From NCBI RefSeq assembly GCF_027924565.1, contig NZ_AP027041.1:186001-250000 (forward strand): DNA of 64,000 bases. Direction: 5' to 3'. The stretch is from Lysobacter auxotrophicus. Lineage in GTDB: Bacteria > Pseudomonadota > Gammaproteobacteria > Xanthomonadales > Xanthomonadaceae. Shown piece by piece: positions 19,272 through 23,345 of this stretch. Below the pieces are notes generated by a model, which made no database searches, had not been told where the DNA came from, and was given only the letters and a program-made list of their open reading frames with translations. Each line of letters opens with the position of its first letter. Position 1 is the stretch's first letter. Position numbers and translations under genes: made by a program.

Positions 19272-19709
19272 TCAGGGACGCGCGATGACCGCCAGCGTGA
19301 TGCGCGAGACGCACACCAGGCGCTGGCGTTCGTCCTCGATGCGGATCTCCCACACCTGCGTGCGCCCGCCTACGTGCAGCGGGCGCGCAGTGCCGGTGAC
19401 GGTGCCCTCGCGCACGCCGCGCAGGTGGTTGGCGTTGATCTCGATGCCGACGCAGGCTTCGTCCTCGCCGACGCACAGCATGCCGGCGCTGCTGCCGAGC
19501 GTTTCGGCCAGCAGCACCGACGCGCCGCCATGCAGCAGGCCGTACGGCTGCCGGGTGCGTTCGTCGACGGGCATGGTGGCGCGGATGAAATCGTGTCCGA
19601 TTTCGGTGAACACGATGCCCAGGGGCTCCATCGCGGTGTTGCGCGAGAGCGCGTTGAGCGTGGCGAGATCCGGTGGGGTGCGGAACGGGGAGCGCGGCGT
19701 CGTATCCAT
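19272..19709 (-). CDS. PaaI-family hotdog-fold thioesterase
   Basis: A 145-residue hotdog protein. QPYGLLHGGASVLLAETLGS carries the catalytic HGG-x-E/D region, followed by GIEINANHLRGVREGTVTG and the closing beta-strands VWEIRIEDERQRLVCVSRIT. It hydrolyses acyl-CoA thioesters, probably aromatic or medium-chain. I start it at ATG 19709; GTG 19715 is an alternative. It is in the same direction as the lipid genes downstream. Confidence 0.9.
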   Translation of the reverse strand: MDTTPRSPFRTPPDLATLNALSRNTAMEPLGIVFTEIGHDFIRATMPVDERTRQPYGLLHGGASVLLAETLGSSAGMLCVGEDEACVGIEINANHLRGVREGTVTGTARPLHVGGRTQVWEIRIEDERQRLVCVSRITLAVIARP

Positions 19710-19742
19710 GGGCACACCTTAGCGGAGCGGCACGCGAGACCC

Positions 19743-19805
19743 AAAAAAAGGGCCCGATAGTCAGTGCGTCGCTACGGAGAGAGTCCGGCGCACCGACTAC
19801 GGGCC
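19743..19805 (-). terminator. Strong intrinsic terminator after the tandem small genes
   Basis: Read on the minus strand, GGCCCGTAGTCGGTGCG pairs with CGCACTGACTATCGGGCC across a 20-nt loop with one mismatch and a bulge, and is followed by CTTTTTTT. It closes the unit containing the two small paralogues and insulates the thioesterase gene. Confidence 0.85.
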
Positions 19806-19914
19806 AGGGGGAACGGGGATGCTGATTCGGGTCGACGTGGGCGGTTCGGAGGCCTGCATGGGTCCAGTCACGAAGGAGCGCGGGTCGGGGTGGAGCACGG
19901 GCACCGCGATGGGC

Positions 19915-20097
19915 TTACGCGCAACGGAAGCGCGGCTGCATCCAGTCCTGGGCATAGCGGCGGGTGCTGGCGTAGCCGCTGCTGTTGCCGTAGCCCACGC
20001 CGAAGTCGCGTTCGCGATGGACGTGGCGCACCGGCAGCGGGACGACGTTCGCGCGCGGGGCGTTGGAGCGGGTCGGGATGGCGAAGAAAGCGTTCAT
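19915..20097 (-). CDS. Small protein of unknown function, tandem copy 2 (60 aa)
   Basis: Sixty residues from ATG 20097 with AGGACACCGCC in front. The N-terminal half (MNAFFAIPTRSNAPRANVVP) is variable; the C-terminal half HRERDFGVGYGNSSGYAS followed by TRRY closely matches its upstream neighbour. The mature-looking end is QPRFRCA and carries the only cysteine. Rich in Arg, Gly, Ser and Tyr, with no signal peptide or membrane segment. I do not recognise the family. Near-identical leader sequences (AGGA plus a CCGCC ATGAACGC start) support recent duplication. Confidence 0.7.
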   Translation of the reverse strand: MNAFFAIPTRSNAPRANVVPLPVRHVHRERDFGVGYGNSSGYASTRRYAQDWMQPRFRCA

Positions 20098-20138
20098 GGC
20101 GGTGTCCTGACGTTCGGTACTGCGTGGTGGTGCGGGAC

Positions 20139-20327
20139 TTACGCGAAGCGGAAGCGCGGCGGCGCCCACTCGGTCGTGTAGCGACGGTTGCTGGCATAGC
20201 CGCTGCTGGAGCCGTAGCCGACGCCGAAATCGCGTTCGCGATGGGTGCGGGACGGGGCGTTCATCAGGGCAAGGGGGGAAACCGGAGCGGACTTGGCGGA
20301 CGGGGCGAAAGTGGAGAGGGCGTTCAT
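20139..20327 (-). CDS. Small protein of unknown function, tandem copy 1 (62 aa)
   Basis: Sixty-two residues from ATG 20327 with AAGGATTCCGCC in front. The core HRERDFGVGYGSSSGYAS then NRRYTTEW is shared with the following gene, 41 bp downstream. Ends PPRFRFA. The conserved half is Gly/Ser/Tyr/Arg-rich and highly charged at its N side; the other half diverges, so selection seems to act on the C-terminal core. Function unknown; nucleic-acid binding or a modified peptide are guesses. The gene is preceded by a GTGTTG-N8-CAACAC palindrome. Confidence 0.72.
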   Translation of the reverse strand: MNALSTFAPSAKSAPVSPLALMNAPSRTHRERDFGVGYGSSSGYASNRRYTTEWAPPRFRFA

Positions 20328-20365
20328 GGCGGAATCCTTCGTGGGGGGTGGGGTAGTGCCTCGGT

Positions 20366-20385
20366 GTGTTGGTAAAGTACAACAC
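20366..20385. promoter_or_regulatory. Palindrome upstream of the small-protein pair
   Basis: GTGTTG (20366-20371) and CAACAC (20380-20385) form a perfect 6-bp inverted repeat around GTAAAGTA, 39 bp upstream of the first small gene. The size and position fit a repressor or activator site. The rest of the gene-free stretch 20386-20673 holds only a GC-rich hairpin near 20608-20623 (GCCCCGAGCGGGGGGC). Confidence 0.45.
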
Positions 20386-20673
20386 CAGATCTATTCCGCC
20401 ATGGGCCAGAAGTCACCCCACCGAAGACCTACCTTGGCGAGGCACGGCCGCAGCCGGAACTCGCTGATATAGATGGACATTTCGGCGCTTCCGTTGCCAT
20501 GACTGATGGCAGGGGTCCCATGGCGGGACGCACGCGCGCGCCTCCCGCTCGCCGACCGGTACGAGAGGGAGGGTGAGGACCGTCACATTCAGGAAGCTGG
20601 ATGGGGCGCCCCGAGCGGGGGGCTTTCCGGCCAGTGCGCGAAACGCGACCCGACAAGGCTTTGGGGATGCCGC

Positions 20674-22734
20674 TTAGAGGATCGGCGCGAGCCCCGCGCC
20701 GAACGCGGTGAAGATCCGCGTCGTGATCGCCTTCATGCCGACGTCGACTTCGGGGAAGTCGCCCACCGGCTGGTAGCACGCACGGAAGTTTGGATCGCTG
20801 GGCAGCAGCGGTTGCGGGCACGCGGCGCTGGCGACGAACTCGTAGCTGGTCGCGTAGCGCATCGGCCACAGGTCCAGGATCGGCATCGCCTCGAACATCT
20901 TGCCCAACGAGTAGTTGAGCCCCGAAAACACCGGCGGCTTGTCGCGCCGCGCGATCACCCACGAATTGGCCGGCGCGATGTCGCGCTTGATGCTCGCGCG
21001 CAGCGCCTGCGCGAAGTCGCGATCCTCGATCACCACCGCGCTCTCGGTGTTGTAGTGATCGCCGCGCGGATCGAAGTTGTGCGTGCCGACCACGCCGATG
21101 CGGCCATCGATCACCATCGACTTCGCATGCAACCCGATGCGGATGCCCGCGCGCTGCAGCGGCACCGGCTGGTTCGCGCGGCGCGTGCTGTAGCGCAGCG
21201 CGCTGTACTCGCGCGACAGCGCGCGCTGGTATTCCGCGCGGTCGACGCTGCTGTTGCGGTCGTACTTCCTGCGCAGTTCGCGACGGGTCTGCGCCATGTC
21301 GACCGGCGGCGTGGGCGGCTCGTCGGCGGGCTTCGTCGAGGCCGCGGTGCCGCCGCTTTCGCCGGTGAGCGCGCGCCCGGCCGAGATCGAACCCGTATCG
21401 GCGTCGGAGTCTTCGTCCTGCGTGCCGGTACCCAGGTCGGGTAGCGCGGCGCCAGTGGCTGCGATGTCGATCGGCGCATCCAGCGGAAAGGGTTTGTACT
21501 CGAAGATGTTGAAGCCGAGTTCGCGCAGGTAACGACGCTTGTACTTGTACGACAGCGCGTAGGCGATGAACGCGTCGGTCGCCGCGAGGCTGTTGGTGGA
21601 GATGATGATCTTCGGGCGCTGCTCGTACGGGCGCTCATGGAGCTTGCGGAACATGTCCTGCGCGGCGTCGGACAGCACCAGGTACGGCGTCTGCAGCACG
21701 ACTTCCTGCTGCGCCGACTCGATCAGGCCGCGAAGCGAGCCGGAAGCCACGGCCTGCTGGTCGGCGTTCTCGGCGCGGTGTTTCTCGGGCGTGTCGGAGA
21801 TGTAGCGCACCTCGCCCACGCGCATCGCGCGCGAGGCGAGGCGTTCCTCGATCAATGCGCCGTCGGCGGCGTCGCGTCGCATCGCCTCCGCGCGTTCGGG
21901 GCGTTCGAAGTGCGAGGGCGGGAGCGGCGGCACGCCGCTGGAGAGCAGGCGCCCGCCGACGTCGCTCAACTTCTCCACCGGCACGCTGCGCCGATCGTTC
22001 CAGAACAGCGCGAAGTCCTCGCGCATCACGCGGGCGACCGGACCGGCGACCAGCAGGTCGCGATCGCGGAAGTTGTACTCGTCGTCCCAGTCGTAATAGT
22101 CGTCCTGGTAGTTGCGCCCGCCGGTGATGCCGACCGCGCCGTCCACCAGCAGCAGTTTGGTGTGCATGCGCTGGTTGAGCGTGCGCCAGCAGCAGGCGGC
22201 GGCCAGCGCGTATTGCGGGTAGGTGATCTGCGCGCGGCCGAGCACGGGGCTGTACAGCTTGAGCTCGAAGTTGGCGTGCGCGCCGGCCAGCGCGGCGAGC
22301 GTGTCGACGTGCTTGAGCGCGGAAAGCTGGTCGATCAGCACGCGCACGCGCACGCCGCGTCGCGCGGCGGCGAGCAGTTCGTCGAGCACCAGCCGCCCTG
22401 CATCGTCCTCGTCGAAGATGTAGGTCTGCAGGTCGATGGCGGTGGTCGCGCTGCGGATGAGGTTAACGCGCGCGAGCAGCGCATCCGGGCCACGGTCGAG
22501 GATCAGCGCGTAGTGCGCCGGCGCCTGCGGGGTTGAGTCCGCGAACGCCCGTCCCGCAAGCGCGCGCAGCGGCGAGCGCTGGGCGCAGGCGTCCGCCTGC
22601 GTGCAGTCCAGCTGGGTAGAACGCGCGGCCACGACCTTCGCGGTGACCTGCTCGCGCTGCGCGCCGGACAGCGAGGCGCATGCGCCCAGCGCCAGCGACA
22701 GCATCGCGACGGCGAGTCGAACGGCGGGCTTCAC
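20674..22734 (-). CDS. Phospholipase D-family lipoprotein (cardiolipin synthase-like)
   Basis: A 686-residue protein starting at GTG 22734, which overlaps the yceI stop by 4 bp (GTGA). The lipobox LALGAC makes it a lipoprotein. Two HKD motifs are complete: HTKLLLVDGAVGITGGRN and HAKSMVIDGRIGVVGTHNFD. It would hydrolyse or transfer phosphatidyl groups at the envelope. Between them, about residues 440-500, is a low-complexity acidic and Thr/Pro-rich insert (GTGTQDEDSDADTGS). Related proteins are often annotated as cardiolipin synthase C; phospholipase activity is equally possible. Confidence 0.92.
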   Translation of the reverse strand: MKPAVRLAVAMLSLALGACASLSGAQREQVTAKVVAARSTQLDCTQADACAQRSPLRALAGRAFADSTPQAPAHYALILDRGPDALLARVNLIRSATTAIDLQTYIFDEDDAGRLVLDELLAAARRGVRVRVLIDQLSALKHVDTLAALAGAHANFELKLYSPVLGRAQITYPQYALAAACCWRTLNQRMHTKLLLVDGAVGITGGRNYQDDYYDWDDEYNFRDRDLLVAGPVARVMREDFALFWNDRRSVPVEKLSDVGGRLLSSGVPPLPPSHFERPERAEAMRRDAADGALIEERLASRAMRVGEVRYISDTPEKHRAENADQQAVASGSLRGLIESAQQEVVLQTPYLVLSDAAQDMFRKLHERPYEQRPKIIISTNSLAATDAFIAYALSYKYKRRYLRELGFNIFEYKPFPLDAPIDIAATGAALPDLGTGTQDEDSDADTGSISAGRALTGESGGTAASTKPADEPPTPPVDMAQTRRELRRKYDRNSSVDRAEYQRALSREYSALRYSTRRANQPVPLQRAGIRIGLHAKSMVIDGRIGVVGTHNFDPRGDHYNTESAVVIEDRDFAQALRASIKRDIAPANSWVIARRDKPPVFSGLNYSLGKMFEAMPILDLWPMRYATSYEFVASAACPQPLLPSDPNFRACYQPVGDFPEVDVGMKAITTRIFTAFGAGLAPIL

Positions 22735-23345
22735 GGTGCGGTCTCGACCAGGCGCACGCGCAGCATGAAGCGGACCCGGTCGGCGAGCGCGAACTGCCAG
22801 CCGTCCAGGCCGTAGTCGTCGCGGCTGATGCTGCCGCTGGCGATGACGTCGCAGTCGCGTCCGGGCTCGTCGCACTCCGGGCGCGACAGGGTGAAGGTTT
22901 CCATGCGCGTCACGCCGTGCATCGACAATCGGCCGCGCATGCGCCCGCCGGTGCGGACGAGGGTGTCCGGATGGGGTTCGGAAACGAACTCGATGTAGGG
23001 GTAGCGCTGTGCATCGAAGAAATTCGGCCCGCGCGCGAGCGCGGTGTAACGGTCGGAGCCGGCGACGACCACGCCGTCGGTGCGCAGGACGATGCGCACG
23101 CGGTGTCGGCCGTCGGCCAGGGTGGAGACTTCACCTTCATACTGGGGGAACACGCCCGCCACGCGCTGGCCCCAGCGGGTGCGCAGCTCGAAGCCGAAGC
23201 GGGTGTGATGCGGATCGAAGGTGCGGGATGACGCGGAAACTACGGGCGGTTCGGGAGCAGCGACCGTTTCCTGCGCCCATGCCGGCCAGAAGGCCAGCAG
23301 GCACGGCAGCAGGAAGCGGGCGGGATGCGGTCGGCGTTCCCTCAC
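22731..23345 (-). CDS. Exported YceI-like protein
   Basis: A 204-residue periplasmic protein from GTG 23345, overlapping the sixA stop by 4 bp. A signal peptide (RFLLPCLLAFWPAWAQ) precedes a lipocalin-like YceI domain: FDPHHTRFGFELRTRWGQRV, YPYIEFVSEP, LSMHGVTRMETFTL and SRDDYGLDGW. YceI proteins bind polyisoprenoid lipids. The same-operon phospholipase D suggests an envelope lipid role. Confidence 0.88.
   Translation of the reverse strand: MRERRPHPARFLLPCLLAFWPAWAQETVAAPEPPVVSASSRTFDPHHTRFGFELRTRWGQRVAGVFPQYEGEVSTLADGRHRVRIVLRTDGVVVAGSDRYTALARGPNFFDAQRYPYIEFVSEPHPDTLVRTGGRMRGRLSMHGVTRMETFTLSRPECDEPGRDCDVIASGSISRDDYGLDGWQFALADRVRFMLRVRLVETAP

Follow-up and report, generated by a model that had tools for sequence, protein, structure and literature searches.

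What do two tiny paralogous genes on the minus strand of the Lysobacter auxotrophicus chromosome encode, and what controls them? Both lie in the window, the whole stretch of 64,000 nucleotides that was analysed, and an earlier note made from its letters alone had described them as tandem paralogues with a conserved core in a regulated unit of their own.

The two-gene unit and its protein family

Both open reading frames are present on the minus strand and are backed by homologues and a codon comparison. ORF 1, the first gene of the unit, encodes a tag protein of 62 aa (20139..20327) and ORF 2 its paralogue of 60 aa (19915..20097), the two being 54% identical (BLASTP, E = 7e-20). The shared core HRERDFGVGYG(S/N)SSGYAS and the following RRY were correctly marked in the earlier note, but the similarity is longer than given there and runs on to the C-terminus (W..PRFR.A). 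Its statement that the N-terminal halves are not shared holds largely, yet these halves are weakly alike and both start with MNA. As described before, each gene has its own ribosome-binding site, AAGGA for ORF 1 (20335..20339, minus strand) and AGGA for ORF 2 (20105..20108, minus strand), within similar leaders, AAGGATTCCGCC-ATG and AGGACACCGCC-ATG. The very strong terminator proposed downstream was recovered by folding as a long hairpin with a T run (19744..19805, minus strand); the hairpin itself (about 19751-19805, with the T run after it) reaches -39 kcal/mol with z = -5.1 against 200 shuffles, and a simple pattern scan missed it, probably because the stem is interrupted. Judged from this layout, the ORF pair is one transcription unit with a strong terminator at its end.

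The earlier note had proposed a profile search with the core and had named a lack of homologues as the result that would speak against it; homologues with conserved cores were found in most members of the same bacterial family. They occur in 41 of 59 related genomes if weak matches are counted. A profile search matched 196 of 297 genomes from the family and 42 of 54 genera, where some of the matches may represent the tagged DUF1232 protein alone (see below). In the remainder of the order only four genomes from two other families were matched, and a class-wide sample of 369 genomes gave a clear match in the own genome only, together with one weak partial match; a gene counted as absent is one that these searches, at their sensitivity, did not find. 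A DNA pattern restricted in its codons proved unsuitable for the core because its serines are encoded by AGC. The named loci come from Lysobacter, Luteimonas, Thermomonas, Arenimonas and Vulcaniibacterium, with one copy per locus in most, two in many and three in some, and the tag is present in 133 distinct small proteins. No family in Pfam or NCBIfam covers these proteins, none of 62 members matches known phage protein families in the PHROGs profiles, an Rfam search of the region and of 14 related loci found no RNA family, and nothing relevant on the core sequence, on DUF1232 or on small proteins of Lysobacter turned up in the literature searched. The small proteins are an undescribed family. 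The same tag, promoter and gene order recur in homologues throughout the bacterial family, so the features of the unit are not due to chance.

A tag protein is also found at 600-850 of a 1547-bp record with 71% GC that is filed as cyanophage DNA (GenBank DQ115827.1, 'Cyanobacteria phage AS-1 contig_20'). It is preceded by a full two-box promoter with the operator GGTGTTTTACATTACCAACACACC at 614, and the record is almost surely contaminating DNA from a Lysobacterales-type bacterium.

The promoter and its probable YtrA-type regulator

The small genes of 72 distinct loci have a two-box promoter in common, TGACTTCYGGCMCATG followed after 28-30 nt by GGTGTTGTACTTTACCAACACACC, which bears out the idea of a regulated unit. 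The second of these elements is a putative YtrA-type operator of 24 bp, GGTGTTGTACTTTACCAACACACC (GGTG-N16-CACC; 20363..20386, minus strand), identified by promoter comparison and a matrix, and its length is fixed in 72 of 72 sites. The palindrome GTGTTG-N8-CAACAC (20366-20385, minus strand) reported earlier does exist, but it is the core of this 24-bp site and not a full unit. The other conserved box, GGTGACTTCTGGCCCATG (20400..20417, minus strand), precedes the operator at a distance of 28-30 nt in 68 of the 72 homologous promoters. TACTTT within the operator (20374..20379, minus strand) is the probable -10 element, as suggested by the analogous TATAGT at -10 in ytrA operon promoters, and in nearly all homologous promoters a TANNNT -10 lies inside the operator. 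No conserved -35 (TTGAC) was detected at the small-gene promoters, and no sigma-54, ECF or sigma-70 -35 elements are conserved there at the right spacing (sigma-54 and ECF judged by eye); the ytrA operon promoters carry TTGAC or TTGCA at -35 in 20 of 20 cases.

Two other interpretations of this region were rejected. An upstream ORF starting from an ATG or GTG of box 1 is incompatible with the distance of 28-30 nt between box and operator, which breaks any frame, and a variable spacing of the palindrome, deduced from translated leaders, was a reading-frame artefact as the 72 sites are of equal length.

Of 25 genomes tested, 24 have a ytrA gene, the own one among them; the own regulator (G000:C1:1686885-1687205) is a short GntR protein of 122 aa matching 3tqn and the C. 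glutamicum YtrA-type structures 2du9/2ek5. Its operon encodes an ABC ATPase and an ABC-2 type permease (the permease matches being below the Pfam cut-off), and the promoters of ytrA operons contain GGTGTTATAGTTN3-4TACAACACC. The operator of the YtrA subfamily is typically 24 bp long (PMC6746942), and the same paper, cited here second-hand for this motif, gives GGTG-N16-CACC for a YtrA-like regulator from X. citri. With a matrix built from the ytrA-operon operators of 23 genomes only, excluding all small-gene sites, the scan of the 64-kb window scored the site at 20363 with 18.9 bits and the runner-up with -2.7. Genome-wide, where operator counts are pattern searches, exactly two such sites were found in the own genome, one at the small-gene unit and one at the ytrA-ABC-transporter operon, with no control hits, and the site count never exceeded one per genome in a 35-genome panel. 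Among 21 genomes that showed no small gene or a mere trace of one in the first gene scans, the palindrome (with up to two mismatches) occurs in one only, where it sits before a divergent tag gene. In a further genome (G035) the same two-box promoter drives an operon whose first genes encode a small exported protein and a YtrA-type GntR regulator.

The palindrome might instead be read by another regulator, its likeness to the ytrA operator being coincidental or ancestral only. Indeed the right half-site of the small-gene operator (CAACACACC) deviates from the ytrA operon consensus (TACAACACC), the ytrA operators score 36-43 on the matrix and thereby far above the 18.9 of the small-gene site, and the bare GGTG-N16-CACC occurs four times in the window and is not specific. 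However, the longer form GGTGT-N14-ACACC occurs there only once, the gap between 18.9 and -2.7 bits is wide, the genome holds just the two sites, and ytrA of G035 is preceded by nearly the same sequence, so that we regard a different regulator as quite improbable. The unit combines a 24-bp GGTG-N16-CACC site, a match to the operator of the regulator's own operon, weaker in its right half-site, and a short YtrA-subfamily GntR regulator in the same genome, and is very probably controlled by this YtrA-type regulator. A bare palindrome can thus be traced to a specific regulator by promoter comparison across genomes.

In B. subtilis, YtrA shows a response to antibiotics that act on the cell wall (PMC6746942, PMC12772383). 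The link to stress, which the earlier note had raised as one possibility, gains support from this response and the YtrA-type operator, and the unit is probably linked to envelope stress by the same analogy. HpaR1 of X. campestris, a member of the same subfamily and likely the orthologue of the regulator found here, represses its own gene and regulates many processes, but at gumB it acts as an activator on a different dyad (PMC4730234); therefore the sign of regulation could also differ here.

Two side observations concern these promoters. The product of the first gene in the own ytrA operon (L285, 7213-7680) is a small exported protein with the C-terminus MPYFSFA, a tail that is kept throughout the family; a relationship between this tail and the tag was considered and rejected (hhalign probability 0.5%). 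A weaker copy of the two-box promoter precedes the gene for an RND-efflux periplasmic protein in genome G020 (L227, G020:C1:255603), which has a tagged DUF1232 protein and in which the small gene was not found.

The C-terminal tag and the DUF1232 protein

In a codon comparison over 15 loci, the C-terminal 35 residues of both genes had dN/dS values of 0.31-0.33, against 0.8-1.1 in their N-terminal halves. This contrast indicates that the frame is under protein-level selection with the constraint mainly in the tail (about 0.32), whereas the N-terminal half changes almost freely, in agreement with the variable N-terminal half and conserved core described before. The tag of ORF 1 lies at 20142..20246 and that of ORF 2 at 19918..20022 (both minus strand), as delimited by alignment, codon comparison and profile comparison. 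AlphaFold2 predicted no fold for the small protein (pLDDT 61, pTM 0.13).

One way to read a Gly/Ser/Tyr/Arg tag is as a low-complexity segment of the sticker type that binds RNA or enters condensates under stress. The GYGxSSGY composition with Arg-rich flanks, the missing fold and an occasional internal GYGRSSGY duplication (L121, L143) fit such a role, but the tag is kept position by position over 35 residues, including its non-low-complexity end RRY..W..P.FRF, whereas sticker-type regions usually conserve composition instead of order. It contains no RGG repeats, is normally present in one copy only and does not show the composition without positional conservation that marks RGG/low-complexity RNA-binding segments, which makes this reading unlikely. 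The duplications, of a GYGRSSGY or GIGYFGIRYG block inside the tag (L121, 2923-3120; L143, 3131-3328), suggest slippage within the tag.

A protein with a DUF1232 domain (PF06803, match confirmed), 203-233 aa long, also has these 35 residues at its C-terminal end; the comparison of the small-protein tag with this tail gave an hhalign probability of 99% and E = 2.8e-18, and AlphaFold2 likewise predicted the tail of the tagged DUF1232 protein to be disordered. Within the own family the DUF1232 orthologue is tagged in 20 of 20 genomes, whereas in other families of the order it is tagged in 0 of 19; this split counts as one evolutionary event and not as 39 independent ones. Outside the family the untagged DUF1232 proteins end in a short Arg/Gly/Ser stretch with FKFR or SLF at its end. 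Since two other families of the order have small tag genes and yet untagged DUF1232, it is probable that the tag originated in the small genes and that a neighbouring DUF1232 gene captured it a single time. Proteins of 80-92 aa (L047-L049 and L089) represent a third architecture ending in the tag. They have a conserved N-terminal part, LMDLVSSTGLFAP, and in some Lysobacter genomes their gene occupies a locus of its own, where the upstream region differs.

Small gene and DUF1232 gene are close neighbours in 13 of 58 named loci, always on one strand, and in the own genome the DUF1232 gene lies away from the unit (G000:C1:2326804). As several genomes have small genes with no close DUF1232 orthologue (for example G015, G022, G023, G024 and G031) and in a few a tagged DUF1232 is present with no small gene found, the two are not obligate partners. 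The shared tag nevertheless ties the small proteins to DUF1232, for which the literature search gave no functional account.

These 13 loci are ordered as PLD-like protein, small gene(s), DUF1232, thioesterase and acyltransferase, or with DUF1232 after the thioesterase, and the window shows this order minus DUF1232. The upstream neighbour is a two-domain phospholipase-D-like protein (20674..22875, start approximate, minus strand; in 44 of 58 named loci) and the downstream one a 4HBT thioesterase (19272..19715, minus strand; in 49 of 58). These lipid-type neighbours together with the acyltransferase fit an envelope role but prove nothing. Over the 58 named loci the conserved neighbourhood contains no maturation or modifying enzyme, dedicated transporter, protease or adaptor, consistent with the earlier observation that no modification enzyme is adjacent.

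This neighbourhood bears on two further readings. If the small proteins were matured into a modified peptide of ribosomal origin, the precursor having a variable leader and a conserved core, their size, the tandem paralogues and the Ser/Tyr-rich core would be expected. Compared with usual precursors the order is however reversed, with a free leader and a core that is conserved from genus to genus. Their conserved neighbourhood has no maturation enzyme, transporter or protease, and the segment also forms the end of a 203-233 aa protein, which leaves this reading very improbable. The tag might also be a signal for degradation (a C-terminal degron) or for a modifying enzyme acting on a Tyr/Ser motif, with the small proteins saturating or sensing that machinery. 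Its strictly C-terminal position in all architectures, its portability between unrelated N-termini and its near-invariant Gly, Tyr and Ser would suit such a signal, but 35 residues are long for a degron and neither a protease or adaptor nor a modifying enzyme is among the conserved neighbours; we consider this reading doubtful.

Proposed mechanism and known systems

The explanation that we favour, and think rather probable, is that the unit is a second target of a YtrA/HpaR1-type regulator and encodes disordered carriers of a docking tag which act with the DUF1232 protein or compete against it. Regulation by the YtrA-type regulator is well supported by the promoter comparison, while we infer what the tag does, the binding of the regulator to the predicted operator, the sign of regulation and the inducing signal, the docking role being the most tentative of these proposals. 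The regulator would sit on the operator over the -10 region and keep the unit off, repression being expected because the operator covers this element. A -35 hexamer is not conserved, and an activator would probably bind the second upstream box. Once the regulator is relieved the unit would be expressed along with the ytrA-ABC-transporter operon, and by analogy with B. subtilis the inducing signal may be antibiotics against lipid-linked wall precursors. The products would be small intrinsically disordered proteins with the N-terminal half as mere carrier and the C-terminal 35-residue tag as the active part, which would be a docking motif that is portable. Through their tags, the small proteins and the helical DUF1232 protein would most likely bind one common partner, as suggested by the fusion of the same tag to DUF1232 and the frequent encoding of both in one locus, so that the small proteins could act alongside the DUF1232 protein or compete with it. 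It is conceivable, though more speculative, that the Lysobacterales use the tag as a dedicated docking code inside the cell and that a YtrA-type envelope-stress regulator frees tag peptides competing with or bridging the DUF1232 tail at a shared partner. The stress signal would then consist of a flood of peptides that copy the tail of another protein.

With these results an undescribed protein family, which about two thirds of the genomes sampled from its bacterial family possess (196 of 297), gains a very likely regulator and a first testable context. PEP-CTERM and ssrA are C-terminal sorting or recognition tags, and like them the tag is strictly C-terminal, portable and conserved on unrelated N-termini. 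In contrast to these it has no hydrophobic segment, is longer than ssrA, is genome-encoded on very few proteins and has no match in Pfam, NCBIfam or PHROGs, and we know of no enzyme that recognises it. The DUF1232/YkvA family (PF06803) has a tagged member in the same bacterial family, often adjoining the small genes, but the small proteins themselves show no PF06803 match above the curated score and orthologues outside the family have no tag.

Among the closest known systems are also the YtrA regulons, namely ytrGABCDEF and ywoBCD of B. subtilis, YtrASa of S. acidocaldarius with two targets, YtrA of X. citri and HpaR1 of X. campestris. Like these, the system described here has a GntR regulator of about 120 aa, a 24-bp operator with distant half-sites, very few predicted targets and an operon of the regulator itself with an ABC transporter and a small exported or membrane protein, whose layout resembles ytrGABC of B. 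subtilis (PMC12772383). It differs from them in the small-gene promoter, which contains one more conserved box and lacks a -35 consensus, and in its second target, which encodes small soluble-looking tag proteins and not membrane proteins. The function of the YtrA system is debated even in B. subtilis (PMC12772383), and a second, non-transport YtrA target with a conserved tag would offer a clean handle on the purpose of the regulon.
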